Below, piece after piece: positions 30,599-60,522 of a DNA stretch of 64,000 nucleotides. The notes beneath the pieces were generated by a model. It did not search any database. It was not told where the DNA came from and worked only from the letters and a program-made list of their open reading frames with translations. A program made the translations under genes and the position numbers. This DNA comes from Oceanibacterium hippocampi (lineage in GTDB: Bacteria; Pseudomonadota; Alphaproteobacteria; Sneathiellales; Sneathiellaceae): positions 868,001 to 932,000 of the forward strand of contig NZ_FWFR01000001.1 in NCBI RefSeq assembly GCF_900172325.1, in the 5' to 3' direction. How positions within the stretch are numbered: the first letter of the stretch is position 1; every line of letters begins with the position of its first letter.

Positions 30599-30842
30599 CG
30601 CGATCGTCGGGTTGCGGGGTACGGGCCGGATTGCCTTCGCGATCAAGTGGATCGCCTCGGCCATGCAGATCCTCGGATATTCCGCGACGGCCGTTGGGCT
30701 GGCGCCGTGGAATATCTACCTGTTCCTGGCCGGTCTGACGGGCTGGCTCGCCGTCGGCGTGCTGTGGAACGACAAGGCGATCATGCTGATCCACCTTGCC
30801 GCCCTCGGTGCCATGCTGGTCGGGCTGGCCGGCGGGTCCTAG
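30588..30842 (+). CDS. Small membrane protein, DUF6552-like
   Basis: 84 residues, with three hydrophobic segments (~17-37, ~43-58, ~64-82: IKWIASAMQILGYSATAVGL, PWNIYLFLAGLTGWLAVGVLW, IMLIHLAALGAMLVG). The pattern resembles the DUF6552 family of small alphaproteobacterial membrane proteins; no function known. GTG 30588 overlaps the SDR stop by 11 bases, implying coupling; its own stop overlaps the mcd stop on the other strand. Confidence 0.68.
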   Translation: MPSDAIVGLRGTGRIAFAIKWIASAMQILGYSATAVGLAPWNIYLFLAGLTGWLAVGVLWNDKAIMLIHLAALGAMLVGLAGGS

Positions 30843-32539
30843 TTCGCGCCGTCCAGCAAGCGGCGGGCGATGACCTGGGCCTGGATCTCGCCGGCGCCCT
30901 CGAAGATGTTGAGGATCCGGGCGTCGCAGAGCACCCGGCTGATCGGGTACTCCATGGCGAAGCCGTTGCCGCCGTGGATCTGCAGCGCGTTGTCGGCGGC
31001 GCCCCAGGCGACCCGGGCGGCAAGCAGCTTGGCCATGCCGGCCTCGAGGTCGCAGCGCCGGCCCTCGTCCTTGGCGCGTGCCGAGGCGTAGGTGAGCTGA
31101 CGGGCGATCATGATCTCGGTCGCCATCCACGCCAGCTTGCCGTAGACGCGCGGGAAGGCGCCGATCGGCTTGCCGAACTGGATCCGCTCGCGGGCGTAGG
31201 CGAGGCCAAGTTCGAGCGCGTTCTGGGCGACGCCAAGCGCGCGCGCCGCGGTCTGGATGCGGGCGCTCTCGAAGGTCTGCATGAGCTGCTTGAAGCCGTT
31301 GCCCTCGCTGCCGCCGAGCAGGTTCTCCTTCGGCACCTCGAAGCCGTCGAAGCCGATCTCGTATTCCTTCATGCCGCGATAGCCGAGCACCGGGATCTCG
31401 CCGCCCGACATGCCCTCGGCCGGGAAGGGATCGCCCTCGGTGCCGCGCGGCTTTTCGGCGAGCAGCATGGAGAGGCCCTTGTAGCCCGGCGCGTCCGGGT
31501 TGGTGCGGGCGAGCAGGGTCATCACGTCGGCGCGGGCGGCGTGGGTGATCCAGGTCTTGTTGCCGGTCACCTTGTAGACGTCGCCGTCGAGGCGGGCGCG
31601 GGTCTTCAGGCTGGCGAGGTCGGAACCGGTGTTGGGCTCGGTGAAGACCGCGGTCGGCAGGATCTCGCCGCTGGCGATCTTCGGCAGCCAGCGCGTCTTC
31701 TGCGCGTCGGTGCCGCCGAGCAGGATCAGTTCGGCGGCAATCTCCGAGCGGGTGCCGAGCGAGCCGACGCCGATATAGCCGCGCGAGAGCTCTTCCGAGA
31801 CCACGCACATCGATGTCTTGCCGAGGCCGAGGCCGCCGAAATCCTCCGGGATGGTCAGGCCGAAGACGCCGAGTTCGGCCATCTCCTCGATCACCGACAT
31901 CGGGATCAGTTCGTCCTTCAGATGCCAGTCATGGGCGAACGGCACGACCTTCTCGTCGGCGAAGCGGCGGAACTGCTGCGCGATCATGGTGTAGGTCTCG
32001 TCGAGACCCGGATCGCCGAAATCGCCGGTCGTCGTGCCCTCGGCGATCAGCGTCCCGATCTGTGCGCGCACGCCCGGCGCATCGCCCGCCGCGATCAGCC
32101 GGCGCACCGCCGGGGTCAGTACGCTGGCCATCGCCGCCTCGTCGAGGCCGAAATGGGCCGGTCGGACGATCTCGCCCTGGGTCATCGCCACGCCGCCGGC
32201 GAGCTGGCCGAGATATTCGCCGAAGCCGGCCTGCAGGATAAGCCGCTCGATCTCGCCGAGCTTGCCCTCGTCGTCAAGCCGGACGGCCCAGCCGCGCAAC
32301 TCGCGCAGGGCCTCGACATAGGTCGCGATCCAGGCGAAGCCGTGGGCGCGGAACTGCTCTTGCTCGAGGCGCGCGGTATCGATCCGGCCGTCGGCGCCGC
32401 CGACCTGTGCCGCGACCCGTTCGGCGACCAGCGAGCGGTAGCGCTCGGCCGCCTCGACCGCCTCGCCGGTGATTGCCAACAGATCGTCGAGAAGCGGGCC
32501 GGTGCCCGCCGCGTCCGCTTCGAGTGCCGCAGCCGTCAT
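30839..32539 (-). CDS. mcd: (2S)-Methylsuccinyl-CoA dehydrogenase
   Basis: 566 residues, longer than ordinary acyl-CoA dehydrogenases because of an N-terminal helical domain of ~150 residues, as in Mcd. The dehydrogenase core shows FTEPNTGSDLASLKTRA, SARIQTAARALGVAQ and IHGGNGFAMEYPISR. Mcd converts (2S)-methylsuccinyl-CoA to mesaconyl-CoA in the ethylmalonyl-CoA pathway for acetyl-CoA assimilation, passing electrons to ETF (etfBA at ~24-26 kb). It lies 97 bases downstream of ccr on the same strand, which supports this identification over a generic acyl-CoA dehydrogenase. Confidence 0.9.
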   Translation of the reverse strand: MTAAALEADAAGTGPLLDDLLAITGEAVEAAERYRSLVAERVAAQVGGADGRIDTARLEQEQFRAHGFAWIATYVEALRELRGWAVRLDDEGKLGEIERLILQAGFGEYLGQLAGGVAMTQGEIVRPAHFGLDEAAMASVLTPAVRRLIAAGDAPGVRAQIGTLIAEGTTTGDFGDPGLDETYTMIAQQFRRFADEKVVPFAHDWHLKDELIPMSVIEEMAELGVFGLTIPEDFGGLGLGKTSMCVVSEELSRGYIGVGSLGTRSEIAAELILLGGTDAQKTRWLPKIASGEILPTAVFTEPNTGSDLASLKTRARLDGDVYKVTGNKTWITHAARADVMTLLARTNPDAPGYKGLSMLLAEKPRGTEGDPFPAEGMSGGEIPVLGYRGMKEYEIGFDGFEVPKENLLGGSEGNGFKQLMQTFESARIQTAARALGVAQNALELGLAYARERIQFGKPIGAFPRVYGKLAWMATEIMIARQLTYASARAKDEGRRCDLEAGMAKLLAARVAWGAADNALQIHGGNGFAMEYPISRVLCDARILNIFEGAGEIQAQVIARRLLDGAN

Positions 32540-32636
32540 CGTTCTTCCTTACAACGCGAGTATCTTCGAATGTCGATGCCCCCGCCCGGATCGCCCGTGC
32601 GGGACGGGACGGGCGGGGGCTATGCCGTCCGCCCGG

Positions 32637-33947
32637 TCAGCCGTTGCCGGCCTCGATCGCATCCTCGACCGTGCGCATGCCGGGATATTTCGCCGACACC
32701 AGCACCGCCATGTTCCCCGGCTTGTGCTCGTTCTTGTACATCTTCATGTGCGCGCGCGGGATGTCGGACCAGGAGAAAACCTCGCTCATCACCGGGTCGA
32801 TGCGACGCTCGATCATCAGCTGGTTGGCCTGGGCGGCCTGTTTCAGGTTGGCGAAATGGCTGCCCTGGATGCGCTTCTGCCGCATCCAGACGAAGCGCGC
32901 ATCGAAGGTGATGTTGTAGCCGGTGGTGCCGGCGCAGAAGACCACCATGCCGCCGCGCTTGACCACGAAGCAGGACACCGGGAAGGTCGCCTCGCCCGGA
33001 TGCTCGAAGACGAAATCGACGTCGTTGCCCTTGCCGGTGATCGCCCAGATCGCCTTGCCGAACTCGCGGCACTTCTTCATGTAGGCGCCGTAGGCCTCGG
33101 TATCCTCGACCAGCGGCATCTTGCCCCAGCAGTCGAAGTCCTTGCGGTTGATGACGCCCTTGGCGCCGAGCGAGAGCACGAAATCGCGCTTCGATTCGTC
33201 CGAGATCACGCCGATGGCGTTGGCGCCGGCGGTCGAGATGAGTTGGATCGCCATCGAGCCGAGGCCGCCGGAGGCACCCCAGACGAGCACGTTGTCGCCC
33301 GGCCGGAGGATATGCGGGCGATGGCCGAACAGCATGCGGTAGGCGGTGGCGAGCGTCAGCGTGTAGCAGGCGCTTTCTTCCCAGGTCAGGTGGCGCGGCC
33401 GATGCATGATCTGGCGCGACTGCACCCGGGCGAACTGCGCGAACGAGCCGTCCGGCGTCTCGTAGCCCCAGATCCGCTGGCTCGGCGAGAACATCGGGTC
33501 GCCGCCGTTGCATTCCTCGTCGTCGCCGTCGTCCTGGTTGCAATGCACCACGACCTCGTCGCCGACCTTGAAGCGCTTGACCCGGCTGCCGATCGCATAG
33601 ACCACGCCCGAGGCGTCGGAACCGGCGATGTGGTAATCGGCCTTGTGGATGTCGAACGGGCTAACAGGGACGCCCAGTCCGGCCCAGACGCCGTTGTAGT
33701 TGACGCCCGCGGCCATCACGAGAATCAGCACCTCGTCCGGGTCGATCGTCGGCGTATCGACGACCTCGACCTGCATCGCCTTGTCGGGCAGGCCGTGCCG
33801 TTCGCGCCGAATCGCCCAAGCATACATCTGCTTCGGTACATGTCCGAGCGGGGGAATCTCGCCGACTTCATAGAGGTCTTTGTAGACGCCTTTCGCCGCA
33901 CTTTCGGTCGTCGCGTCGGCGACGCTTTCGGTTTCAGCCATGGCCAT
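32637..33947 (-). CDS. ccr: Crotonyl-CoA carboxylase/reductase
   Basis: 436-residue MDR-superfamily enzyme. NADPH fold VWGASGGLGSMAIQLISTAGA, the crotonyl-CoA/CO2 pocket region HPGEATFPVSCFVVKRGG, and the N-terminal YAWAIRRERHG pattern are those of Ccr, which reductively carboxylates crotonyl-CoA to ethylmalonyl-CoA. This is the committed step of the ethylmalonyl-CoA pathway. The ATG at 33947 has GGAGGAAT upstream. It is divergent from ecm across a 242-bp regulatory region and leads mcd. Confidence 0.95.
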   Translation of the reverse strand: MAMAETESVADATTESAAKGVYKDLYEVGEIPPLGHVPKQMYAWAIRRERHGLPDKAMQVEVVDTPTIDPDEVLILVMAAGVNYNGVWAGLGVPVSPFDIHKADYHIAGSDASGVVYAIGSRVKRFKVGDEVVVHCNQDDGDDEECNGGDPMFSPSQRIWGYETPDGSFAQFARVQSRQIMHRPRHLTWEESACYTLTLATAYRMLFGHRPHILRPGDNVLVWGASGGLGSMAIQLISTAGANAIGVISDESKRDFVLSLGAKGVINRKDFDCWGKMPLVEDTEAYGAYMKKCREFGKAIWAITGKGNDVDFVFEHPGEATFPVSCFVVKRGGMVVFCAGTTGYNITFDARFVWMRQKRIQGSHFANLKQAAQANQLMIERRIDPVMSEVFSWSDIPRAHMKMYKNEHKPGNMAVLVSAKYPGMRTVEDAIEAGNG

Positions 33948-34069
33948 TCCTCCAACCTTCCTTGTCTCGCGGGCGGCGCGCCGCTAGGCTCGCAACCCGA
34001 TCATTTCAGCCGTCTCCCGCGGCCGGAAGCGGCGAACTGAGGGCGATCTAAGAGGATCGATCAGGATGC

Positions 34070-34143
34070 TGCAAGTTCTTTTTGCACCGCAGCAGAGAGA
34101 CATGATATTTCTTCCAGCGACCTTGCGCCGCAATATTGCGCCG
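34070..34143. promoter_or_regulatory. Repeat-rich regulatory region between ccr and ecm
   Basis: Between the divergent ccr and ecm starts there are an inverted repeat TGCAA-N7-TTGCA (34070-34086), a perfect palindrome GCAATATTGC (34130-34139) and a direct repeat TTGCGCCG at 34123-34130 and 34136-34143. TGCAA-type half-sites resemble those bound by ScfR-family regulators (RamB, PccR) of acetate and propionyl-CoA genes. I read this as a probable operator cluster; the bound protein is inference. Confidence 0.4.
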
Positions 34144-34189
34144 TGACAGGGGTCAGTCGACGAAACGATGTTGTGCAGATGAGGTTCAG

Positions 34190-36196
34190 GTGAGCGGCAA
34201 GGCGGACAGGACGGAAACCCCGGTGAAGCGCGACAAACCGTGGCTGTTCCGGACATATTCGGGACATTCCTCGGCGCGCGCCTCGAACGAGCTGTACCGG
34301 ACGAACCTGGCGCGCGGGCAGACCGGGCTGTCGGTGGCCTTCGACCTGCCGACCCAGACCGGTTACGATTCCGACCATCCGCTGGCGATCGGCGAGGTCG
34401 GCAAGGTCGGCGTGCCGATCGGCCACCTGGGCGACATGCGGGCGCTGCTCGACGGCATCCCGCTCGACCGCATGAACACCTCGATGACGATCAACGCGAC
34501 GGCGCCCTGGCTGCTGGCGCTCTATATCGCGGTCGCCGACGAAACCGGCGCGGCGCGCGAATCGCTTACCGGCACGGTGCAGAACGACATCATCAAGGAG
34601 TATCTGAGCCGGGGCACCCACATCTTCCCGCCCGAGCCGTCGATGCGGCTGATCACCGACGTGATCTCGTTCACCGCCGGCGAGATGCCGAAATGGAACC
34701 CGACCAACATCTGCTCCTACCACCTGCAGGAGGCGGGCGCGACGCCAGTGCAGGAACTGGCCTATGCGCTGGCCAACGCGATCGCCGTGCTCGACGCGGT
34801 GCGGGCGACCGGGCGCTTCGACGATGACGCCTTCCCGCGTGTCGCCGGCCGGATTTCCTTCTTCGTCAATGCCGGCATCCGCTTCATCACCGAGATCTGC
34901 AAGATGCGCGCCTTCGGCGAGTTGTGGGACGAGATCCTCGAAACCCGCTACGGCGTCGAGGACCCGAAGTTCCGGCGCTTCCGTTACGGCGTGCAGGTCA
35001 ACTCGCTCGGCCTGACCGAGCAGCAGCCGGAGAACAACGTCTATCGCATCCTGCTGGAGATGCTGGCGGTCACCCTGTCCAAGGACGCCCGGGCCCGCGC
35101 CGTGCAGCTGCCGGCGTGGAACGAGGCGCTCGGCCTGCCGCGCCCGTGGGACCAGCAATGGTCGCTGCGCCTGCAGCAGATCGTCGCCCACGAGACCGAC
35201 CTGCTGGAATACGAGGACATTTTCCGCGGCTCCGAGGTGATCGCTGCCAAGGTCGAGAGCCTGAAGGCCGAGGCCAAGGCCGAACTCGACCGGATCCTCG
35301 GACTCGGCGGCGCCGTCGCGGCCGTCGAGACCGGCTACATGAAGGAAGCGCTCGTCCAGGCCAATGCCGAGCGGGTGCGCCGGGTGATGGACGGCTCGAC
35401 CGTCGTGGTCGGCGTCAACCAGTTCACCGAAAGCGCACCGTCGCCGCTGCTGGATGCGGGCGACGGCGGCATCATGACCGTCGACCCGGCGGCGGAGAAT
35501 GCCCAGATCGAGGGCCTCGCCGGCTGGCGGGCAGGCCGCGATCAGGGCGCCGTCGACGCGGCGCTGGCCGCGCTCGCCGAGGCGGCGAAGGGCGGCGCCA
35601 ACATCATGCCGGTCTCGATCGAGGCGGCGAAGGCCGGCGTCACCACCGGCGAATGGGGCGAGACCCTGCGTCGGGTGTTCGGCGAGTATCGAGCGCCGAC
35701 CGGCGTCGGCGCCACGGTCAGCCGGGTCGGCGGCGACCGCCTGACGGAAACCCGCAACCGGGTCGAGGCGGTCGCCCGGCGGCTTGGCCGGCCGCTCAAG
35801 ATCCTGATCGGCAAGCCCGGCCTCGACGGTCATTCCAACGGCGCCGAGCAGATCGCCGTTGCCGCGCGCGACTGCGGCATGGAGGTGGTCTACGAGGGCA
35901 TCCGCCTGACCCCGGACCAGATCGTCAACGCGGCGCTGGAGGAGGCGGTTCACCTGGTCGGCCTGTCGATCCTGTCGGGCAGTCACGTGAAGCTCGCCGA
36001 GGATGTCCTGAAGGGCCTGCGCGATCTCGGGCTCGGCGCAGTGCCGGTGATCGTCGGCGGCATCATCCCGCCCGAAGACGCGGCGCGCCTGAAGGCGGCG
36101 GGGATCGCCGCCGTATACACGCCGAAGGATTACGACCTGACCGCGATCATGGCCGATATCGCCGGGATCATCGACGCCCGGGGCGAGGCGGCCTGA
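34190..36196 (+). CDS. ecm: Ethylmalonyl-CoA mutase
   Basis: 668-residue B12-dependent acyl-CoA mutase converting (2R)-ethylmalonyl-CoA to (2S)-methylsuccinyl-CoA. N-terminal TIM-barrel (FDLPTQTGYDSDHP, TINATAPWLLALY) and C-terminal cobalamin domain with the base-off histidine motif DGHSNGAEQIA, the Ecm-typical variant of the DxHxxG loop, and VGLSILSGSH. GTG 34190 is chosen because GAGG lies 5 bases upstream (34180-34184) and because the earlier in-frame start would add 18 unsupported residues. Divergent from ccr and mcd, completing the distinctive steps of the pathway. Confidence 0.95.
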   Translation: MSGKADRTETPVKRDKPWLFRTYSGHSSARASNELYRTNLARGQTGLSVAFDLPTQTGYDSDHPLAIGEVGKVGVPIGHLGDMRALLDGIPLDRMNTSMTINATAPWLLALYIAVADETGAARESLTGTVQNDIIKEYLSRGTHIFPPEPSMRLITDVISFTAGEMPKWNPTNICSYHLQEAGATPVQELAYALANAIAVLDAVRATGRFDDDAFPRVAGRISFFVNAGIRFITEICKMRAFGELWDEILETRYGVEDPKFRRFRYGVQVNSLGLTEQQPENNVYRILLEMLAVTLSKDARARAVQLPAWNEALGLPRPWDQQWSLRLQQIVAHETDLLEYEDIFRGSEVIAAKVESLKAEAKAELDRILGLGGAVAAVETGYMKEALVQANAERVRRVMDGSTVVVGVNQFTESAPSPLLDAGDGGIMTVDPAAENAQIEGLAGWRAGRDQGAVDAALAALAEAAKGGANIMPVSIEAAKAGVTTGEWGETLRRVFGEYRAPTGVGATVSRVGGDRLTETRNRVEAVARRLGRPLKILIGKPGLDGHSNGAEQIAVAARDCGMEVVYEGIRLTPDQIVNAALEEAVHLVGLSILSGSHVKLAEDVLKGLRDLGLGAVPVIVGGIIPPEDAARLKAAGIAAVYTPKDYDLTAIMADIAGIIDARGEAA

Positions 36197-51447: not shown

Positions 51448-51903
51448 ATGCCCTATCGAGCCCGCCCCGTCCGTATCGAGCACCAGGACCCCGTCTATGT
51501 GCTGGAGGAACAGATCGGCCATCTGCTCCGCCGGGCCCATCAGCGCGCGACGGCGGTCTTCCAGAGCACGATCGGCGAGGACAACCTGACGCCGACGCAA
51601 TATGCGGTGCTCAGCAAGCTCTATGCGCATGGCGAGTTGTCCCAGAATCATCTGGGGCGACTGACGGCGATGGATCCGGCGACGACGATGAACCTGATCC
51701 GCCGCTTGCGGGCGCGGGATCTCGTCGCCACCCGGCGCGATCCGGACGACGGCCGGCGGGTGCTGTTGCAGCTTACCGATAGCGGCGAAGACCTGTTCCT
51801 GCGTCACTACGGGAACGGCTTCGTGGTCAGCGAACGCATCCTCGAGCCGCTCGACGCGGCGGAACAGGCGACCCTGCTGGCGCTGCTCAAGAAACTCATC
51901 TGA
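51448..51903 (+). CDS. MarR-family transcriptional regulator
   Basis: 151 residues: winged helix (LTPTQYAVLSKLYAHGELSQNHLGRLTAMDPATTMNLIRRLRARDLVATRRDPDDGRR) flanked by dimerisation helices. No cysteine-based redox site is evident, so an aromatic or amide ligand is more likely. It converges on the catabolic operon (68 bases between stops). It could regulate that operon, as MarR proteins beside nicotinate or aromatic catabolic genes do, but the position proves nothing. Confidence 0.9.
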   Translation: MPYRARPVRIEHQDPVYVLEEQIGHLLRRAHQRATAVFQSTIGEDNLTPTQYAVLSKLYAHGELSQNHLGRLTAMDPATTMNLIRRLRARDLVATRRDPDDGRRVLLQLTDSGEDLFLRHYGNGFVVSERILEPLDAAEQATLLALLKKLI

Positions 51904-51970: not shown

Positions 51971-53176
51971 TCAGTGGCCGACGATTTCGGGGACCTTGTC
52001 GGCGGGCGGCGTGTGGCGAGAGCGCTGGCAGCGGACGATGCCGTCGATCATGACCATGCCGACGCCTGGCAGGTCGCCGATCGAGAGCGCCTCGAGAATA
52101 TCCTTGCCGGCGGAATGCTGGGGCCGGTCGGCGAACACCAGGTCGGCGGGGCGGCCGGTTTCGATCAGCCCGACCTTGAGGTCCCGCATGCGCGCCGTGT
52201 TGCCGGTGGCGAAGCAGACGACCTGCTCGGCCGGGATCTCGCCCACGCTGGCGAGCAGGGCCATCGTGCGCAGGATGCCGAGCGGCTGCACGCCGGAGCC
52301 GGCCGGCGAGTCGGTGCCGAGGATGACGCGCTGCGGCTGGTCGAGTTCGTAGGCGGTGCGGACAGCGTAGAGGGCCGCTTTCTCGTTGCCGTTATGGACC
52401 ACCTCGATACCGCGCGCGCAGCCCTCGCAGAGGCAGCGGATCTGGTCGAGCGGGAGAGCCGTGTGGCCGCCGTTGATATGGCCGATGACGTCCGGATCGG
52501 CTTCGAGGATGACATCCTTGTCGATATAGCCGGAACCTGGCACGGACGGGCCGCCGGTATGGATCGTCGACTGGATGCCGTGCTTGCGCGCCCAGGCGAC
52601 CATCTGGCGGGCCTCGTCGCCGGCCTTGACGCTGCCGAGGCCGATTTCGCCAATCAGGCTTACGCCGGCGCCGGCGAGCTCGGCAAAGTCGGCTTCCTCC
52701 ATCCCCTTTTCCAGGATTGGCGCCCCGGCGTGGACCTTCACGCCGCCGGGCCGGAAGGCCGAGAAGGCCCGCTGGGCGGTGATCGCCAGCGCCTTCAGGC
52801 CGACGATGTCCTTCGGTCGGCCCGGCAGGTGGACCTCGCCGGCCGAGATCATCGTGGTGACGCCGCCGTTCAGGAAGGACTCGATCCAGCCGAGCTGGTT
52901 CTGTCGCGGGGTCCAGTCGCCGAACACCGGATGGACGTGGCTGTCGATCAGCCCCGGCATGACCGCGCAGCCGTGGGCGTCGATCACCGACGTCGGGTTC
53001 GACTGGTCGACGTCCTTCGCGCGCCCGGCGGCGGCGATCAGCCCGTTCTCGACGACGATGGTGTCGGCGTCCATGACCGGGTTCTCGAAATCGCCCGAGA
53101 GCAGGATGCCGATGTTCCGGATGACGACTTTCTGGCCGTCCGCGGGGTTCTGGGCGTTGTCCGTTCCGTGGCTCAT
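51971..53176 (-). CDS. Enamidase-like amidohydrolase
   Basis: 401-residue amidohydrolase-superfamily protein: HxH metal site His80/His82 (GLIDSHVHPVF), further His in STIHTGG and GHINGGHTAL, and GTDSPAG with the general-base Asp. The overall sequence (GGVTTMISAGEVHLPGRP, EVVHNGNEKAAL) recalls enamidase, which hydrolyses 6-oxo-tetrahydronicotinate to 2-formylglutarate and ammonia. The likely reaction is opening a cyclic enamide or amide; the true substrate is unknown. ATG 53176 overlaps the DUF1185 stop by 4 bases. Last gene of the leftward operon. Confidence 0.85.
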   Translation of the reverse strand: MSHGTDNAQNPADGQKVVIRNIGILLSGDFENPVMDADTIVVENGLIAAAGRAKDVDQSNPTSVIDAHGCAVMPGLIDSHVHPVFGDWTPRQNQLGWIESFLNGGVTTMISAGEVHLPGRPKDIVGLKALAITAQRAFSAFRPGGVKVHAGAPILEKGMEEADFAELAGAGVSLIGEIGLGSVKAGDEARQMVAWARKHGIQSTIHTGGPSVPGSGYIDKDVILEADPDVIGHINGGHTALPLDQIRCLCEGCARGIEVVHNGNEKAALYAVRTAYELDQPQRVILGTDSPAGSGVQPLGILRTMALLASVGEIPAEQVVCFATGNTARMRDLKVGLIETGRPADLVFADRPQHSAGKDILEALSIGDLPGVGMVMIDGIVRCQRSRHTPPADKVPEIVGH

Positions 53177-53757
53177 CTCAGACCGTCCTCTCCCTTGATC
53201 TCGTTCTTGGTCAGGCCGCCGACGCGCGGCAGCGGGCGGCCGCCGTCGGTCAGCACGATGGCGACGAGGATCTCGTCGCGGCGCGGCGCGTCGGAAACCG
53301 AGACGCACATCGCGTCGAAATGGGTCCGCACGTAAGCCGCGTCCTTGTGGCCGAGCGGTACGTCGATGGTCGCGCCGAGGCCGCCCATCTTCTTGGCCGA
53401 GGGAATGAGCGCCGGGCCGCCGCCGATCGCGGCGCGCAGCGGCTTGCCGATGCGCGGATGCAGGATCGCCGCCGCATGTTCCAGTTCGCCGTCGGCGCCG
53501 ACGATCGCCGCCTTGCCGAAGCTCTCGATCACGCCATGGTCGCCGCCCAGCGCGGCAACCGCCTCCGCCGCCAGCAGCCCGCCCAGTTCCTCGCCGATCG
53601 CCATCAGCGGCTCGAGATCCTCGACATAGCGGCCGGCCAGCGGGTTCTCGACGATCGCGACCGCGGCCGCCCGGCGCACCGGCGGATCGACGGCCTTCCC
53701 GTTCTCGCGAAAAATCTTCTCGACTGAAACGACGATCTTCCGAATGACCGCTGACAT
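53173..53757 (-). CDS. DUF1185 'amino acid synthesis' family protein, copy 2
   Basis: 194 residues of PF06684/DUF1185 (IRKIVVSVEKIFRENGK, NPLAGRYVEDLEPL, GKAAIVGADGELEHAAA, ending EIKGEDGLR). Structures of the family have suggested a role in amino acid synthesis, but no activity is established. It is the same length as the adjacent copy and similar throughout, so the pair arose by duplication. Coupled by ATGA to the enamidase-like gene. Confidence 0.88.
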   Translation of the reverse strand: MSAVIRKIVVSVEKIFRENGKAVDPPVRRAAAVAIVENPLAGRYVEDLEPLMAIGEELGGLLAAEAVAALGGDHGVIESFGKAAIVGADGELEHAAAILHPRIGKPLRAAIGGGPALIPSAKKMGGLGATIDVPLGHKDAAYVRTHFDAMCVSVSDAPRRDEILVAIVLTDGGRPLPRVGGLTKNEIKGEDGLR

Positions 53758-53807
53758 GGCGTTCCTCGATTTCTGCTGTGGGGACCGATGGACGATACTA
53801 GCGAGGC

Positions 53808-54392
53808 TTATCGCAGCCCGTCATCGCCCTTGATTTCCGAAGTCTGCAGGCCACCGGCACGGGCATGGACGCGGGCCCCGATGGTCATCGCCAGGATGAA
53901 GACCGCCTCGTCCGGCCGCGGGCCGTCGGCAACGCCGACCTCGATCGCGTCGAAATGGCTGCGGACGTAGGCGGCGTTGACATGATGCACGGGAATGTCG
54001 ATGCGCGTCCCGGCAACGCCGACCTTCTTGGTCGACGGCACGATGGCCTTGGTCCCGCCGAGCGCCTCGCGCATCGCGTAGCCGCCGGCCGGATGCCAGA
54101 CCGCGCCATGCTCGACCTCGCCGGCGGTGCCGATGATCGCGCCCTTGCCATAGGCCTCGATCTCGTCCGGCCTGGCCTGCATCGCGGCGAGCAGCTTCTT
54201 CGCCATCGCCAGGCCATGCGGGTTCAATGCCTCGATCAGCGGCATGATGTCCTCGACATAGCGGCCGGCGTAGGGATTCTTGCAGACCATGGCGATCGCG
54301 CCGCGCCGGTGCGGCACCTTCCGGGGCTCTCCGCCCTCGTGGAAGATCTCGTCGAGCTGGATGGCGATACGTCGAATTTGAACCAGACTCAT
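53808..54392 (-). CDS. DUF1185 'amino acid synthesis' family protein, copy 1
   Basis: 194 residues (IRRIAIQLDEIFHEGGE, NPYAGRYVEDIMPLI, GKGAIIGTAGEVEHGAVWHPAGGYAM, ending EIKGDDGLR). A paralogue of the next gene downstream, 50 bases away. Shared, probably functional positions are NP-AGRYVED, the GKxAI-G-GE-EHxA stretch, the internal STKKV/SAKKM lysines and the C-terminal EIKG-DGLR. It has a very strong ribosome site, AAGGGAGGG, upstream of ATG 54392. Two non-identical copies suggest a heteromer or two successive steps. Confidence 0.88.
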   Translation of the reverse strand: MSLVQIRRIAIQLDEIFHEGGEPRKVPHRRGAIAMVCKNPYAGRYVEDIMPLIEALNPHGLAMAKKLLAAMQARPDEIEAYGKGAIIGTAGEVEHGAVWHPAGGYAMREALGGTKAIVPSTKKVGVAGTRIDIPVHHVNAAYVRSHFDAIEVGVADGPRPDEAVFILAMTIGARVHARAGGLQTSEIKGDDGLR

Positions 54393-54495
54393 GTCCCGGC
54401 CCTCCCTTGGTTTTTTACGGTCCGACCCTCCCGGCCTGGCGGCGCCAGCCGGGGATTGCCGGGGAATTCAGGATGTCGCGGTGCCGGCCCGGCCG

Positions 54496-55476
54496 TCACC
54501 CGCCGCCCCGGAGGCCGCGCGGCAGACGCAGCCGGAATACCGGCGCCAGCAGCCCGCGCGGCAGCAGGACGACAGACAGGATAAAGAGTATTCCGAGCAC
54601 GAGCAGCCAGTATTGCCCGAGGGCGTCGGAAAGGACATTCTCGACGGACTTCACGACCAGCGCCCCGAGGAAGGCGGCGAGCAGGACCTCCTTGCCGCCT
54701 AGCGCGACCCAGATCAGGACCTCGGTCGAGAGTGCGAAGCCGAGAATGGCCGGCGAGACGAAGGCGAACTGGATCGCGAAGAGCGCGCCGGCGAAGCCCG
54801 CGACGGCCGCCGCGACGGCGAAGCTCGCGGCCTTGTAGCGGGCGACGTCGTAGCCCATGAAGGCGGCCCGCATCTCGTTGTCGCGGATGCCGCGCAGCAC
54901 GGTTCCGAACGGCGAGCGTTCGAGGCCGAGCAGCAGCAGGTAGACGACCAGCGCCGCGCCGAAGACGATGAGGAAGATCGGCAGCGGCTCGAAGATCTCG
55001 ATCGCCCCGTCGCCGCTGCCGAACGTGAGCGGCGGGATGTCGAGCAGGCCGTTGAAGCCGCCGATGTAGTTCCAGTTGACCGCCAGCCGCTCGGCGATGA
55101 CCGCCGCGGCCAGGGTGACAATGCCGAAATAGGGTCCGACCAGGCCGCGCCCCCGGAACAGCGCGAGCCCGAGCAGGAATGCCACCGTCCCGGGCAGCGC
55201 CAGCGCCAGCAGGAAGCCGACCAGGGCGCTTGCCGGGACACCCGGAAGCAGGCCCTTCGTGGTCAGCGCCATCGCGTAGGCGCCGAGGCCGAAGAACAGC
55301 GCCTGGCCGAAGCAGAGCAGGCCGCCCTGTCCCCAGATGAACGACAGGCTCATCGCGAAGATGCCGTAGATCATCAGTTGCGCGAGCAGGCCGAGGTTCC
55401 AGTCGTCGACGACGAGCGGGCAGAGGGCGAGGACGGCCCAGACGGCGACGGTCAGCGGGGAGGACGGACGGCGCAT
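54496..55476 (-). CDS. livM: Branched-chain-type ABC transporter permease LivM
   Basis: 326 residues, around eight to ten membrane helices with the LivM motif GLVGPYFGIVTLA and RSPFGTVLRGIRDNEMRAAFMGYDV. One of two inner-membrane permeases of the uptake system in this operon. Its ATG abuts the livH stop with no gap. The 103-bp region to the next gene contains a T-rich stretch. Confidence 0.92.
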   Translation of the reverse strand: MRRPSSPLTVAVWAVLALCPLVVDDWNLGLLAQLMIYGIFAMSLSFIWGQGGLLCFGQALFFGLGAYAMALTTKGLLPGVPASALVGFLLALALPGTVAFLLGLALFRGRGLVGPYFGIVTLAAAVIAERLAVNWNYIGGFNGLLDIPPLTFGSGDGAIEIFEPLPIFLIVFGAALVVYLLLLGLERSPFGTVLRGIRDNEMRAAFMGYDVARYKAASFAVAAAVAGFAGALFAIQFAFVSPAILGFALSTEVLIWVALGGKEVLLAAFLGALVVKSVENVLSDALGQYWLLVLGILFILSVVLLPRGLLAPVFRLRLPRGLRGGG

Positions 55477-56334
55477 CTACTTCTTCTTCCATCCGGCAAT
55501 GCCGTTCGGGAGGATCCGGATGACGACGATCGCGAGGCTGAACACGAGGATCTGGGCAATGACAGGCGTCCAGACGGCGGCGATCACGCTGTTCGAGGTG
55601 CCGATGACCGCGGCCCCCCAGATCGCCCCGACCGGGCTTGCCGCGCCGCCGACCAGGATCGACAGGAAGGCCGGGATCAGGAAGCCGACGCCCATTTGCG
55701 GATCGACGCTCATCAGCGGCGCCATGACGGCCCCCGCGAGGCCGGCGAGGCCCGAGCCGAAGGCGAAGGTGAGGCGGTCGATCCGCCGCGTGTTGACGCC
55801 AAGACAGCTCGCCATCTGGCGGTTGGCGATGACGCCGCGGGCGGTCAGGCCGAGCTTGGTCTTGTAGAGCACGAGGAAGGTCGCGGCCGTGACCGCGATC
55901 GCCATCGCCATCACGAACAGGCGGTAGGACGAGTAGGTGATGCCGAGAAACGCCACCGGTTCCGCGAACGGCGCGACGACCTGCTGCGAGGCCGGGCCGA
56001 AGATCACGATGATCGCCTGCTTCAGGGCCAGCGATATGCCCCACGTCGCGAGGATCGTGTCGAGGAAGCGGTGGTAGATATGGCGGATGATGAACTGTTC
56101 GATCAGCAGCCCGATGAAGGCGACGAGGCAGAAGGCGACGATCAGCACCAGCCAGAACGGCGCCCCGAGCGACTGCGTGTAGACGACGCTGTAGGCGCCG
56201 ATCAGGAACAGTTCGCCATGGGCCAGGTTGATGACGTTCATCATGCCGAAGATGATGACCAGGCCGATGCAGACGAGCAGCAGGGCGAGGACATATCCGG
56301 TCGCGTCGAGGCCGATCAGGAATATCAGGCTCAT
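55477..56334 (-). CDS. livH: Branched-chain-type ABC transporter permease LivH
   Basis: 285 residues with the LivH patterns MMNVINLAHGELFLIGAY, LARGVIANRQMASCLGVNTRRIDRLTFAFGSGLAGLAG. Partner permease to LivM. Six bases after livF's stop, on the same strand. The substrate of Liv-type systems varies widely (amino acids, urea, amides, aromatic acids), so the name does not imply branched-chain amino acids. Confidence 0.93.
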   Translation of the reverse strand: MSLIFLIGLDATGYVLALLLVCIGLVIIFGMMNVINLAHGELFLIGAYSVVYTQSLGAPFWLVLIVAFCLVAFIGLLIEQFIIRHIYHRFLDTILATWGISLALKQAIIVIFGPASQQVVAPFAEPVAFLGITYSSYRLFVMAMAIAVTAATFLVLYKTKLGLTARGVIANRQMASCLGVNTRRIDRLTFAFGSGLAGLAGAVMAPLMSVDPQMGVGFLIPAFLSILVGGAASPVGAIWGAAVIGTSNSVIAAVWTPVIAQILVFSLAIVVIRILPNGIAGWKKK

Positions 56335-56339
56335 GTCGG

Positions 56340-57041
56340 CTACACCGTCAGATAGCGGCTGACCAGGGTCGGGTCCGATCGAACCTCGTCGATCGACACG
56401 CCGGTCTTGATCAGCCCGTTTTCGATGAATCGCACGCTTGTCGCGAGGCGGAAGACGAGGTCGATATTCTGCTCGACCACGATCACGGTCAGCGCCTCCT
56501 CGGCGGCAATGCGCTTCAGGGTCATGGCGATATCCTGCACGATGGACGGCTGGATCCCTTCCGACGGCTCGTCGAGCAGTAGCAGTTGCGGCCGTCCGAC
56601 GAGGGCGCGGGCAATCGCCAGCTGCTGCTGCTGCCCGCCGGACATGGTTCCGGCAAGCTGCGTCCGGCGCTCGGCGAGGATCGGGAAATAGTCGAATACG
56701 AAATCGACGCTATCCACCTTGAGCGGCTTGCCGATGACGCCCATCGCGAGATTCTCCGCGACCGTGAAATCGCCGAAGATCTCCCGCCCTTGCGGTACGT
56801 AGGCGATGCCAAGGTTGCTGATGCGGTAGGGCGGCAGGCCGCGGATCTCAGTGCCGTTGAAGGTGATCGAGCCGCGGACATGCGGCAGGCAGCCCATCAG
56901 GGCCTTGACGAAGGTCGTCTTGCCCATGCCGTTCCGCCCCATCAGGGCGACGGATTCGCCCTTTGCGACGTCGAAACGGAGCCCTTTCAGGACGTCGGCG
57001 CCGCGGCTGTAGCCGGCGCGAAGATCGCTGACGGTCAGCAT
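56340..57041 (-). CDS. livF: ABC transporter ATP-binding protein LivF
   Basis: 233 residues: Walker A GRNGMGKTT, Q-loop, LivF-type YVPQGREIFGDFTVAENL, signature MSGGQQQQLAIARAL, Walker B LLLLDEPSEGIQPSIV. ATG 57041 overlaps the livG stop by 7 bases. Usual LivF length. Confidence 0.93.
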   Translation of the reverse strand: MLTVSDLRAGYSRGADVLKGLRFDVAKGESVALMGRNGMGKTTFVKALMGCLPHVRGSITFNGTEIRGLPPYRISNLGIAYVPQGREIFGDFTVAENLAMGVIGKPLKVDSVDFVFDYFPILAERRTQLAGTMSGGQQQQLAIARALVGRPQLLLLDEPSEGIQPSIVQDIAMTLKRIAAEEALTVIVVEQNIDLVFRLATSVRFIENGLIKTGVSIDEVRSDPTLVSRYLTV

Positions 57042-57787
57042 GCGACCGGCTCCCCGAGATAGGCGCGGCGGATTTCCGGATCGTCCTTGATGTCGTCGTA
57101 GGCGCCTTCGGTCAGCACGGCGCCCTTCATCATGACGACGACCGGGCAATCGAGCTCGCGAACGAAGGCCATGTCGTGCTCGATGACGAGGATCGAGACC
57201 CCCAGGTTCGCCCGGATATCGCGGATCAGCGCGACGGTTGCCGCGGTCTCCGCCTCCGTCATGCCGGCGGTCGGCTCGTCGAGCAGCAGGAGCCGCGCGC
57301 TGGTCGTCACCAGCATCATGATCTCAAGCCGCTGCTTGATGCCGTGCGGCAGTTCGCTGGCCACGACGCCGGCATAGTCGCCGAGGCCGCTGTCGGCCAA
57401 CAGCCGGTCATAATCCGAACGGTCGGGGCGTCGGCGCAGCATCGAGAGCGGCAGATAGGCACGTTTCGCGGCGGCGGCGGCGATCTCGATGTTCTCGGTC
57501 ACCGTCATGTCGCCGAACACAGCCGGGACCTGGAATTTCCGGCCGACGCCGAGACGGCTGATGATCGGCGGGGTGAGCCCGGTAATATCCTCTCCGGCGA
57601 ACTCCACGCGACCGGAAGTCGGCGGCAATGCGCCGGAGATGATATTGAACAGCGTGCTCTTGCCGCAGCCGTTCGGGCCGATGATGCATTTCACATCGCC
57701 GTCCGGAAGCTGCAGGTCGACTCCGTTCAGGGCCTGGATGCCGCCGAAATTCTTGGTGACGGCCTCAATCGACAAGATCGGCGACAT
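57035..57787 (-). CDS. livG: ABC transporter ATP-binding protein LivG
   Basis: 250 residues: Walker A GPNGCGKST, LivG-type GVGRKFQVPAVFGDMTVTENIEIA, Walker B RLLLLDEPTAGM, then VIEHDMAFVREL. The signature motif is altered to LPHGIKQRLEI, as in urea-type (UrtD) relatives. That, with the binding protein type, hints at an amide or urea-like ligand. Confidence 0.92.
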   Translation of the reverse strand: MSPILSIEAVTKNFGGIQALNGVDLQLPDGDVKCIIGPNGCGKSTLFNIISGALPPTSGRVEFAGEDITGLTPPIISRLGVGRKFQVPAVFGDMTVTENIEIAAAAAKRAYLPLSMLRRRPDRSDYDRLLADSGLGDYAGVVASELPHGIKQRLEIMMLVTTSARLLLLDEPTAGMTEAETAATVALIRDIRANLGVSILVIEHDMAFVRELDCPVVVMMKGAVLTEGAYDDIKDDPEIRRAYLGEPVAC

Positions 57788-57822
57788 CGCAGTCCTGAAC
57801 CTTCGTTACGGTCGTGCGGGCG

Positions 57823-59013
57823 TCAGGCGCACTGGCTCGGCGCGGAGATCCGGCCGATATACTTCTGCTGGTTGAGCTTGCCGCCCTGGGCCTCGAAGAT
57901 CAGCATGTTCAGATCCACATGCAGGTCTTCCGGACGCAGCGTGACCTCGCCGTTGCCGACGGTCAGGGTCTGACCGGGCAGCGCCGCCATGATCTTGTCC
58001 TTCTGGTCGGAATCGGCGCGCCTGATCGCCTCGATGAAGAACTTGGTGATGCCGTAATGTGAATCGACGTAGTAGCTCACCGTGACGTCGTCGCCGAACT
58101 TGGCCTTCTGGCGGGCGACGAAGTCGTGCGCTTCCGGCCGGTCCAGGGTCTGGATGAAATGCGAGCAGCCGATGATGCCGTTCGATTCCTCGTCGCTCAG
58201 GCCCGGCAGGTAATTCTCGTTGAAGCCCATGAAGGCGATCCGGCATTTCGACTTCATGCCGGCCGCCGTGAACTGCTTAACGAAGGTGATGCCGTCGGCG
58301 CCCGGAACCGTGAGCACGACGCACTTGGCCCCGGATTCCTCGATCTTGCGGATCGTGGTGGCGAAATCCTTCATGCCGAAGGGTGTGTATTCCTCACCGA
58401 CGACGGTGCCGTTCGCCCCTTCGATCACCCGGCGAATCGCCTTGTTCATCTGCTGCGGCCAGACATAGTCGGCACCGAACAGGTAGAAGCTCTCGCCCAC
58501 GGTCTCCTGCAGATAGGGCATCAGCGGATCGACGTAATGGGCGGGCAGGGCGCTGTAGCAGGAGATCGTCTTGCTGCACACGCCGCCTTCGTAATCGGTC
58601 GCGTAAAGCAGCGGCGTCTTGTAACGCTCGACCGTCGACTTGATCGCGTCGCGGGCGGCGCTGGTGACCGGGCCGATGATCGCGTGCACCTTGTCGCGCT
58701 GGATGAGCTGTGCGGCGCGTTCGACCGAGGTCTTGGGGTCGGTCCGGTTGTCGGCCTTGACGATCTCGATCTGCCGGCCGAGCACGCCGCCGGCGGCGTT
58801 CGCCTCGTCGACCGCCATGCCGATGCCCTGCGTGCCCTGCTGGCCGAAGAGCTCAAGGCCGCCCGAGAAGGGCAGCAGCACGCCGAGCTTGATGGTTTCC
58901 GCGGCGCGGGCCACGAACGGTGCGGCGACCGACATGACGGCGGCGCCACCGGCGACGCCGGCGGCGCTTGTCAGGACCCGGCGACGGGTGAACTTGCTGT
59001 TGAACGTTTTCAA
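57823..59013 (-). CDS. Liv/urea-type periplasmic substrate-binding protein
   Basis: 396 residues with a Tat signal (FTRRRVLTSAAG, ~8-19) and cleavage near VARAAE, then a type I periplasmic binding fold: IKLGVLLPFSGGLELFGQQG, RTDPKTSVERAAQLI, IGPVTSAARDA, FYLFGADYVWPQ. The latter pattern (GxDYxWP) is that of AmiC/UrtA-type proteins binding short amides or urea. The Tat route implies cofactor-free but folded export. First gene of the transporter block. Confidence 0.9.
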   Translation of the reverse strand: MKTFNSKFTRRRVLTSAAGVAGGAAVMSVAAPFVARAAETIKLGVLLPFSGGLELFGQQGTQGIGMAVDEANAAGGVLGRQIEIVKADNRTDPKTSVERAAQLIQRDKVHAIIGPVTSAARDAIKSTVERYKTPLLYATDYEGGVCSKTISCYSALPAHYVDPLMPYLQETVGESFYLFGADYVWPQQMNKAIRRVIEGANGTVVGEEYTPFGMKDFATTIRKIEESGAKCVVLTVPGADGITFVKQFTAAGMKSKCRIAFMGFNENYLPGLSDEESNGIIGCSHFIQTLDRPEAHDFVARQKAKFGDDVTVSYYVDSHYGITKFFIEAIRRADSDQKDKIMAALPGQTLTVGNGEVTLRPEDLHVDLNMLIFEAQGGKLNQQKYIGRISAPSQCA

Positions 59014-59060
59014 GTGTGCCTCCTTGTTGTTGATTGCCGGCGATCCCCACGCCGGTTGGT

Positions 59061-59828
59061 TCAGACGATGGTGTAGCCACCGTCGGCGACGAGATTCTCT
59101 CCGGTTACGAAGCTGGCCTCGGGGCTCGCGAGAAAGAGCGCCGCCTGGGCGATCTCTTCGGCCGTTCCGAAGCGCTTCATGGGTTGCAGCGCAAGATAGC
59201 GGTCCAATGCCTCGGCCGGGTCGTCGGCCGTCGTCGCAACACCGCGGCGCAAGCCGGGCGTGTCGATCGTGCCGGGGCAGATCGCGTTGACCCGGATGCC
59301 GTGCTCCATCAGGCCGATCGCCGCTGCCCGGGTCAGCGAGGAGATCGCCCCCTTGGTCGCGTGATAAGCCGCGTAACCCGGCGAGCCGACGATGGCGAAG
59401 CTCGACGACGTGTTGACGATCGCCCCGCCGCGTCCCTGCGCGATCATCAGCCGGGCGGCCTCGCGGATGCCGACGAAGACGCTCTTAAGGTTGACCCGGA
59501 TCGAGAGGTCGAAATCCTCGTCCGAGGTCTCGAGAATCGACCGGGTATTCTGTATCGCGGCATTGTTGAACAGGATGTCGAGGCCGCCGAAGGTGTCGAC
59601 CGCCTGCTGCAAGGCGGACTTGATGTCGTCGGTGACGCCGACGTCGCAGGCCGCGAAGACGGCCTCGCCGCCGGCCGCTGCGATCTCCGCGACACGCGCC
59701 CGACCGGCGTCTGCGTCGATGTCGGCGACGACGACCTTCGCTCCTTCGCGGGCGAACAGGACGGCCGCCGCCGCGCCGATGCCGTTGCTGCCGCCGGTGA
59801 TGACGGCGACCTTTGCGGCAAGTCTCAT
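59061..59828 (-). CDS. SDR-family oxidoreductase
   Basis: 255 residues with TGGSNGIG cofactor loop, Asp at the end of strand 2 (VVADID, so NAD preferred), NNAA, catalytic Ser in NTSSSFAI and YHATK (Tyr and Lys) and C-terminal TGENLVADGG. A fully competent classical SDR. It probably oxidises or reduces the alcohol/aldehyde formed after ring opening in this operon. ATG 59828 overlaps the hydrolase stop by 4 bases. Confidence 0.9.
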   Translation of the reverse strand: MRLAAKVAVITGGSNGIGAAAAVLFAREGAKVVVADIDADAGRARVAEIAAAGGEAVFAACDVGVTDDIKSALQQAVDTFGGLDILFNNAAIQNTRSILETSDEDFDLSIRVNLKSVFVGIREAARLMIAQGRGGAIVNTSSSFAIVGSPGYAAYHATKGAISSLTRAAAIGLMEHGIRVNAICPGTIDTPGLRRGVATTADDPAEALDRYLALQPMKRFGTAEEIAQAALFLASPEASFVTGENLVADGGYTIV

Positions 59829-60466
59829 GTCTCGAGGTCCAGGATATCCAGCGGGCCTTTGCCGAGCAGATGCGCCGAGACGCTCTGCGCGGTCGAGACG
59901 ACGCCGAAGTGGGTCGCGATGTCGTAGAGCGAGGATTCCTGCTCGCGCGGACCCGTCGCCGCGACGCAATCCTCCGGCACGACGCATTCGTAGCCCATGA
60001 AGAAGGCGTCATGGATGGTGGAGCGCACGCAGATATTGGTCACCACGCCCATGACGACCAGCGAACGGATCCGGAAATCGCGCAGCGTGACGTCGAGGTC
60101 GGTGTTGAAGAAGGCGGAGTAGCGCCGCTTGATGATCCTGATGTCGTCCGCCTGCGGCTCGAGATCGTCGATCACGCCCGAGCCCCATTCGCCCTCGATG
60201 CAATGCGGCGTGCGCTTGAGGAATTCGCGATCCTGGCGGGCATTGCCGCGATGCGCGTCTATGACGAAGACAATGGGCGCACCGGCCTCGCGTCCGGCCG
60301 CGATCACCTGGCGCTGCGGCCCGATCAGGCGCTCGTATCCGGGCAGCACCATGGCCCCGCCCGGCTTGCAGAAATCGTTGAGCATGTCGACCACGACGAT
60401 CGCCGTCGTGGCCGGATCGAGCGTCACGGAAGCGGCGAGATTCTTGCTGGAAAAGACGTCGGACAT
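59825..60466 (-). CDS. Isochorismatase-family cysteine hydrolase
   Basis: 213 residues with the catalytic triad Asp28 (VVVDMLNDF), Lys113 (IIKRRYSAF) and Cys146 (VVTNICVRST), and the cis-peptide Val-Thr just before. Family members include nicotinamidase, maleamate amidohydrolase, N-carbamoylsarcosine amidase and biuret hydrolase; in this operon an amide hydrolase is most likely. ATG 60466 is preceded by GGGGGT; the frame reaches 47 codons further upstream across the operator, which argues against those starts. First gene of the leftward operon. Confidence 0.9.
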   Translation of the reverse strand: MSDVFSSKNLAASVTLDPATTAIVVVDMLNDFCKPGGAMVLPGYERLIGPQRQVIAAGREAGAPIVFVIDAHRGNARQDREFLKRTPHCIEGEWGSGVIDDLEPQADDIRIIKRRYSAFFNTDLDVTLRDFRIRSLVVMGVVTNICVRSTIHDAFFMGYECVVPEDCVAATGPREQESSLYDIATHFGVVSTAQSVSAHLLGKGPLDILDLET

Positions 60467-60492
60467 GCGGACCCCCGGCTTCGAATTTTTAT

Positions 60493-60522
60493 ATGTGTAC
60501 ACATGATATTTTGGGGCGTCAA
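60493..60522 (-). promoter_or_regulatory. Promoter and GntR-type palindromic operator of the catabolic operon
   Basis: ATGTGTACACAT (60493-60504) is a perfect 12-bp palindrome with the TGTNNACA core seen in GntR-family sites. A minus-strand -35 box TTGACG (60522-60517) lies 12 bases before it, so the palindrome covers the -10 region and a bound protein would block transcription. A half-like copy, TTTGTACA, is at 60563-60570. No GntR gene is in the window. Confidence 0.55.

Follow-up and report, generated by a model that had tools for sequence, protein, structure and literature searches.

A 64,000-nucleotide stretch of the Oceanibacterium hippocampi genome (contig NZ_FWFR01000001.1, positions 868,001 to 932,000; hereafter the window) contains, at positions 51,971 to 60,522, an operon encoding an isochorismatase-fold protein (ISO), a short-chain dehydrogenase/reductase (SDR), an ABC transporter, two DUF1185 proteins and an amidohydrolase. 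Our analysis indicates, with a probability that we place at roughly 0.6, that this operon is the ring-opening half of a catabolic pathway of the nicotinate/nicotinamide type, the first half of which lies approximately 770 kb away. This interpretation draws on the match of the amidohydrolase to the solved enamidase 2vun, its place in the enamidase tree, the reductase and hydroxylase encoded in the same genome, the co-inheritance of these genes, the common operator type and the conserved residues of the DUF1185 proteins.

In the proposed pathway, a Urt-like ABC transporter would import a carboxamide of the nicotinamide kind, and ISO would act as an amidase stripping its carboxamide group. The molybdenum hydroxylase and 6-hydroxynicotinate reductase of the distant locus (locus B), both identified by orthology, are predicted to lead to 6-oxo-1,4,5,6-tetrahydronicotinate (THON), which the window enamidase, a strong orthologue of the characterized enzyme, would convert into 2-formylglutarate and ammonia. 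The two DUF1185 proteins would then act on the opened enamine or on 2-formylglutarate, most likely through enamine hydrolysis, tautomerisation or decarboxylation in the direction of glutarate semialdehyde, the SDR would account for one redox step, and a MarR regulator probably governs both loci through one type of operator.

Nicotinate breakdown via 6-hydroxynicotinate and THON has been described in Eubacterium barkeri, Azorhizobium caulinodans and Bradyrhizobiaceae SG-6C (PMC3511419 for the last). The system of O. hippocampi resembles this route in its enamidase orthologue, in the hydroxylase and reductase orthologues of the genome and in the regular presence of DUF1185 in the clusters of relatives; it differs in that its genes occupy two distant loci and in that ISO, the SDR and a Urt-like rather than a Liv-type transporter accompany the enamidase. 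It would thus represent a variant of the THON route equipped with a Urt-like importer and, probably, an amidase for the carboxamide, the substrates and the DUF1185 reaction being predictions from sequence.

Translations and a Pfam family scan bear out the ten-gene, minus-strand layout and the gene order proposed in the initial annotation, as well as the palindrome ahead of the operon, at 60493-60504. The gaps between consecutive genes, read from ISO to the enamidase, are -4, 47, 35, -7, 5, 0, 103, 50 and -4 bases, so that the genes do mostly overlap or lie less than 60 bases apart, the sole exception being the 103 bases between the LivM-position permease and DUF1185a. The likely start of ISO is the ATG at 60466, and the stretch ending at 60522 thus includes the operator. 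The features are as follows.

60488..60507, no strand: operator, 22-41 bases before the ISO start, with the perfect core ATGTGTACACAT at 60493-60504
59825..60466, minus: ISO, isochorismatase fold PF00857 (family match; D, K, C aligned to RutB)
59061..59828, minus: SDR oxidoreductase PF13561 (family match)
57823..59013, minus: periplasmic binding protein PF13458, Urt/AmiC-like, with Tat-like signal and TTG start
57035..57787, minus: first ABC ATPase PF00005, UrtD-like, below the cut-off (family match)
56340..57041, minus: second ABC ATPase, assigned by LivF/UrtE position only
55477..56334, minus: first permease BPD_transp_2 PF02653, UrtB-like (253.3 bits, cut-off 250.3)
54496..55476, minus: second permease BPD_transp_2 PF02653, UrtC-like, below the cut-off (family match)
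53808..54392, minus: DUF1185a PF06684 (family match)
53173..53757, minus: DUF1185b PF06684 (family match)
51971..53176, minus: enamidase (amidohydrolase; orthology to the solved enamidase 2vun)
51448..51903, plus: MarR-family regulator, convergent with the operon (family match)

The enamidase, locus B and their common operator type

The operon amidohydrolase matches the E. barkeri enamidase 2vun over residues 17-399 with 48% identity (384.7 bits, E 4.7e-114), the one strong match among solved structures, and the alignment indicates full-length orthology to the characterized E. barkeri type; E. barkeri itself was not among the best 80 matches of the named-genome scan. The positions that we take to be the amidohydrolase metal ligands are kept, with H83, H207, H234 and D290 invariant in the alignment and H81 present in the window enamidase. 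In a tree of 97 sequences, the window enamidase falls among those linked to 6-hydroxynicotinate reductase, and the fork joining 2vun and the reductase-linked enamidases has moderate support (85/71). Furthermore, of the 101 positions that deviate in no more than one of 51 reductase-linked enamidases (2vun included), it keeps 99, the two changes being V224I and N389H. This strong orthology predicts an enamidase opening THON, in agreement with the hydrolytic ring opening by an enamidase-like enzyme suggested initially.

The genome (4.83 Mb in 18 contigs) also encodes a reductase (66% to the cluster genes of relatives) and a fused molybdenum hydroxylase (57% to those genes, over query 6-910 of 915), adjacent to each other and on the same contig as the operon (reductase at G000:C16:1694880-1696412; enamidase at C16:919974). 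In order, locus B (L098/L099) encodes MarR, a large FAD oxidoreductase, the FAD subunit, the hydroxylase, the reductase, a UPF0280-like protein and a Liv-type transporter, with an isochorismatase-fold protein about 1.3 kb beyond the transporter whose best solved relative, PncA, is a weak match (E 1.4e-4). Neither DUF1185 nor an enamidase is found in locus B; the only two DUF1185 genes of the genome are the window pair, and its only enamidase match at E 1e-30 is the window gene (6 of 23 first-look candidates scored). The reductase is matched by 26 plasmid records, and 11 of the 20 rows listed among them call the orthologue 6-hydroxynicotinate reductase; a Sulfitobacter and a Comamonadaceae plasmid carry clusters of the reductase, the amidohydrolase and two DUF1185 genes, the latter annotated as 'amino acid synthesis family protein'. 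The genome hence holds a 6-hydroxynicotinate reductase, as judged by orthologue name only, and a molybdenum nicotinate hydroxylase by orthology, with a predicted substrate; the first three steps are encoded at two distant loci on C16 rather than together.

The initial annotation had set aside the known nicotinate route because the operon lacks a hydroxylase and a 6-hydroxynicotinate reductase. Their absence holds inside the window and fails for the genome, and the exclusion of the nicotinate route is not borne out, since both genes lie in locus B behind an operator of the same type.

In 83 of 85 loci, a counterpart of the UPF0280-like gene of locus B (L098:16413-17288) lies no more than 1.5 kb from the reductase, both misses falling at the end of a stretch. 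The E. barkeri reductase reportedly contains a covalently bound flavin, and UPF0280 is presumably ApbE-like; if both premises hold, this protein could be the flavin transferase for the reductase.

A site similar to the palindrome before ISO, TTTGTATGTATACAAACAAA, precedes the FAD-hydroxylase-reductase genes of locus B. The operator core (TGT[AG]TACA/TGTA[TC]ACA), picked once the sites of the window and of locus B were known, has 19 matches in 244 upstream stretches of 16 loci (three of these matches are the two overlapping ones of the window and that of locus B itself), compared to a mean of 1.36 and a maximum of 6 in 300 shuffles and to 2 matches in 1.137 Mb of coding sequence. A held-out profile was built from 15 sites, without those of the window and Mesorhizobium soli, a pair of identical Bradyrhizobium sites being counted once. 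On the 64 kb, this profile ranks the window operator first (27.0 bits), the next non-overlapping site reaching 5.0 bits and the best site in 20 shuffled windows 16.9 bits. The same type of operator precedes the nicotinate clusters of relatives; with the held-out profile, no comparable site was found in Kaistia soli (best 4.8), Neopusillimonas (8.7) or L199 (-1.2), and exact palindrome enumeration returned no dominant word. The MarR proteins of the window and locus B share 58-60% identity, and one MarR regulator probably controls both loci through the operators observed, to which it is predicted to bind.

Co-inheritance was surveyed in 289 genomes of the class, which as related genomes are not independent, so that p-values computed from their counts overstate the significance. 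The reductase is present in 44 of them, the enamidase (at least 67%) in 19 and DUF1185, over its cut-off, in 56; the reductase accompanies the enamidase in 18 of these 19 genomes, and DUF1185 does so in all 19. At the level of loci chosen for holding an enamidase, some of which are near-copies, DUF1185 lies within 12 kb of the enamidase in 61 of 72 loci at 47% identity or above and in 15 of 21 loci below 47%, as it does in two Chloroflexota loci outside these counts. For three of the 11 loci lacking such a neighbor (L055, L066, L068), DUF1185 is encoded elsewhere in the genome. The scattering of DUF1185 and the enamidase, which the initial annotation had named as what would speak against its interpretation, was therefore not observed.

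A nucleoside-associated module in relatives

Kaistia soli, Mesorhizobium soli and Mesorhizobium plurifarium have genes for ISO, MarR, the enamidase and DUF1185 next to those for a nucleoside importer of the PnrA type and two nucleoside hydrolases, and relatives of ISO, MarR and DUF1185, together with a ring opener, lie beside the same importer and hydrolases also in Sinorhizobium medicae and Rhizobium rhododendri (the nucleoside genes were assigned by Pfam on L229 and for one hydrolase and the binding protein of L221, and by similarity otherwise). Neither a reductase (E 1e-20) nor a hydroxylase (E 1e-100) was found in Kaistia soli, Mesorhizobium soli or two Chloroflexota genomes. In the latter (L254, L260), an epimerase-like protein, DUF1185, ISO, the enamidase and an SDR are encoded one after the other, which amounts to a condensed form of the set of soluble enzymes; these stretches contain no match to a nucleoside hydrolase.

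The ISO-linked enamidases change 0-3 of the 101 conserved positions in Proteobacteria and 12-14 in Chloroflexota. Their occurrence at scattered points of the tree with so little change argues for the same reaction, and the lack of reductase and hydroxylase matches implies that a nucleoside base reaching THON should already be reduced. Hydrated NADH derivatives (NADHX) fit as such a tetrahydro-level nucleoside. A second entry into the pathway, bypassing reductase and hydroxylase, likely exists. More tentatively, we propose an undescribed nucleoside-fed entry into THON composed of the importer, two nucleoside hydrolases, a RutB-like amidase, SDR-type dehydrogenases, DUF1185 and either the enamidase or the alternative opener HyuAB, for which NADHX would be a fitting substrate and of which the window operon may be the base-importing form.

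Applied to the window, this alternative states that a tetrahydro-level nicotinamide, such as 6-hydroxy-1,4,5,6-tetrahydronicotinamide, the base of hydrated NADH, is the substrate of the SDR, which oxidizes it to the lactam; ISO then deamidates the product and the enamidase opens it. We consider it possible yet appreciably less probable than not. It gains from the recurrence of the module in the five species named, from the genomes in which reductase and hydroxylase went unmatched and from M. plurifarium, which combines the module with a transporter of the window type (54-61%). The distribution of the ISO-linked enamidases, counted in its favor for the five label changes that they require on the tree, is at chance level, because only six rows carry the label and shuffled labels require a mean of 5.9 changes (L260 was labelled 'other', its amidase match being just under the 49% cut). 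The four best matches of the window SDR among the fetched loci are SDRs beside ISO (L254, L297, L229, L235), yet at only 37-41%, and the fifth (L073) is not beside ISO. Moreover, the window has no match to a nucleoside hydrolase or a nucleoside importer, the best nucleoside hydrolase match of the genome is at 40%, the identification of hydrated NADH is a matter of chemical reasoning, and NADHX catabolism is not described among the literature matches listed, as far as their titles and the beginnings of their abstracts go. The proposal of a non-nicotinate route made in the initial annotation accordingly retains part of its force through these amidase, DUF1185 and ring-opener relatives in genomes without reductase or hydroxylase matches, and loses the rest to locus B.

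DUF1185 and two proposed ring openers

Both DUF1185 proteins belong to PF06684 (229.3 and 239.5 bits for DUF1185a and DUF1185b, Pfam gathering cut-off 27), and DUF1185b is the paralogue usually nearest the enamidase in relatives. Thirteen charged or polar residues, numbered as in DUF1185a (R7, N39, K83, E92, E94, H95, R108, S120, R144, H146, E162, R174 and R178), are conserved at a level of 95% or above across 155 sequences and of at least 94% within each paralogue group, with K123 just short; this pattern suits a dicarboxylate-binding enzyme. The predicted fold (pLDDT 92.9) has two solved DUF1185 structures as top matches, followed at Z 5 to 7 by Rid proteins, AIR and selenophosphate synthetases, chorismate mutase and barbiturase. 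The similarity to Rid/YjgF (Z 6.7 over 117 residues) falls under the Z 8 cautionary level and is tied with unrelated synthetases, and that to barbiturase-type cyclic amide hydrolases (Z 5.0-5.8), also under Z 8, is weak.

Clusters joining the enamidase, the reductase, a UPF0280-like protein and DUF1185 were also observed in Bacillota and Desulfobacterota-type contigs (L239, L241-L246). We take these groups to be mostly anaerobic, which argues that DUF1185 is not tied to the aerobic branch.

The DUF1185 family received a structural description in 2010 (PMC2954203), and the literature passages on the family that we consulted report no catalytic function. Glutarate has one carbon fewer than 2-formylglutarate, so that a decarboxylation is needed, for which these passages assign no enzyme. 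The closest functional precedents come from trigonelline and coumarin degradation, where HcdD has been likened to the former DUF1185 family and TgnF called homologous to it in the consulted part of PMC7913881; the ring chemistry is different, and TgnF is known here at second hand. The same source relays that TgnF stimulates semialdehyde oxidation by TgnE and that HcdD was not seen to do so. A reading of the DUF1185 proteins as non-catalytic helpers that merely stimulate a dehydrogenase, as stated for TgnF, appears rather unlikely: the thirteen conserved residues speak against it, and the stimulation would equally follow if DUF1185 speeds the formation of the semialdehyde.

Among the 44 genomes with the reductase, 17 hold the enamidase only, 25 hold HyuA (at least 57%) only, O. 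hippocampi alone holds both, and one holds neither. In this count up to four HyuA candidates per genome were scored, the 57% threshold was chosen after seeing the ranked list, G127 is counted on a partial match, and two 'HyuA only' genomes (G104 and G064) also carry a distant enamidase homologue (41% and 36%, the latter partial). The same exchange is seen beside ISO and the nucleoside hydrolases, with the enamidase in Kaistia and Mesorhizobium and HyuAB in Sinorhizobium medicae and Rhizobium rhododendri, and the two look like alternative openers of the same lactam. The best named models for representative HyuA and HyuB proteins are the subunits of the ATP-dependent caprolactamase CapAB (PMC8453981, consulted in part), although their scores (516 and 342 bits) lie far below the cut-offs of 1000 and HyuAB is encoded outside the window.

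The HyuAB genes of O. hippocampi itself (L291:7322-11593, contig C6; 56-62% to reductase-linked HyuA) lie directly behind a Rid-like gene and beside a different ABC transporter. Their membership in the regulon was rejected on account of this transporter and of a best operator score of 3.9 bits, and they perhaps encode a lactamase for another compound. The idea that HyuAB together with a Rid protein generally takes the place of DUF1185 was likewise rejected: a Rid-like gene lies beside HyuA in only 1 of 24 HyuAB loci (L291), and in 1 of 94 other enamidase loci, without adjoining the enamidase there.

The transporter, its cargo and remaining alternatives

The transporter is Urt-like rather than Liv-like. 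Its first permease exceeds the UrtB cut-off, and Urt models also give the highest scores for its binding protein, first ATPase and second permease, yet below their cut-offs; the binding protein, at 219.8 bits against a cut-off of 492.75, falls short of UrtA. It thus resembles the urea transporter UrtABCDE in its subunits and departs from it in these scores and in the lack of a urease among the operon families. At its N-terminus the binding protein carries TRRRVLTS, which resembles a Tat motif, and in the first ATPase ELPHGIKQ stands at the usual place of LSGGQ; for both motifs we presume the generally accepted meaning. ISO keeps the D, K and C of RutB in the alignment, as in the pyrimidine Rut pathway, but lies far under the NCBIfam equivalog cut-off for RutB (128.6 bits, cut-off 377.95), and no other Rut enzyme occurs among the operon families.

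Orthologues of the binding protein were found in L229 (61%), L217 (52%), L077-L080 (41-46%) and L299 (40%). Six of these seven fetched loci with a window-type transporter contain an ISO or nicotinamidase-like gene, ISO being near in L229 and L217 and the isochorismatase-fold protein of L077-L080 being 69% identical to the neighbor of locus B. An exclusive association of this transporter with amidases is ruled out by the stretch from G001, in which the orthologous binding protein (40%) has no amidase of either kind nearby. In Neopusillimonas (L217), ISO, a window-type transporter, a second ISO-like gene, the reductase, both DUF1185 genes and the enamidase are consecutive; no hydroxylase was found there at E 1e-100, as expected if the cargo is 6-oxonicotinamide. 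The simplest reading is that the cargo would bear a carboxamide, for instance nicotinamide or a ring-oxidized form of it. The idea of one catabolic operon, likely taking up a small nitrogen-heterocyclic amide, is supported by these data; the window-type transporter is rarer than DUF1185 and the amidohydrolase and accompanies them in only part of the loci.

The operon is unlikely to serve the uptake and ring opening of a cyclic amide that has nothing to do with nicotinate. The amidohydrolase and isochorismatase folds act on many amides, and a more distant clade of enamidases is found with different partners, for example a monooxygenase and succinate-semialdehyde dehydrogenase. Three plasmid loci of this clade are annotated: in two, DUF1185 adjoins the enamidase and succinate-semialdehyde dehydrogenase lies within 5 kb, the third, from Rhodococcus, having neither. 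However, the 15 members of that clade change a mean of 21 of the 101 conserved positions, compared to 2 in the window enamidase, which groups with the reductase-linked enzymes, and the operator type is common to nicotinate clusters. Plain branched-chain amino-acid uptake with unrelated enzymes behind it is very unlikely: it has the Liv-type architecture in its favor, but the corresponding binding-protein model yields 66.9 bits where its cut-off is 477, less than the Urt models do, and six of the seven window-type transporter loci carry an ISO or nicotinamidase-like gene.

In several reductase/enamidase clusters (L051-L053, L062, L101, L199), a Rieske oxygenase is encoded beside a Liv-type transporter; it is possibly an N-demethylase for N-methylated pyridines. 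Elsewhere in the window (30839-36196), acyl-CoA dehydrogenase, crotonyl-CoA carboxylase/reductase-like and B12-dependent mutase-like genes, as read from translations, are clustered as in the ethylmalonyl-CoA pathway.

Several observations weigh against the assignment of the operon to a nicotinate-type pathway. Locus B has its own Liv-type transporter and a nearby isochorismatase-fold protein, so that the window operon need not share its substrate, and the window binding protein is under the cut-off of every named transporter model. Orthologues of ISO (62-68%) occur in six other genomes of the class, all with the reductase, without lying beside the enamidase or DUF1185; conversely, Kaistia soli and Mesorhizobium soli hold ISO, enamidase and DUF1185 without reductase or hydroxylase matches. 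The G001 transporter locus (L076/L299) lacks an ISO or nicotinamidase-like gene in a genome that has the reductase cluster. The HyuAB of O. hippocampi (58%) could open the lactam, but lies elsewhere and without an operator, and the matches of DUF1185 outside its own family stay below Z 8, tied with unrelated synthetases.

The assignment of the operon to nicotinate/nicotinamide-type catabolism gives DUF1185 a concrete and testable place, immediately after ring opening of the enamidase type, and suggests that two isofunctional ring openers, the enamidase and HyuAB, may serve the breakdown of vitamin B3. If the proposal for the nucleoside-associated module is true, that module would serve the catabolism of damaged pyridine nucleotides, and would allow one to ask whether bacteria eat damaged NADH.

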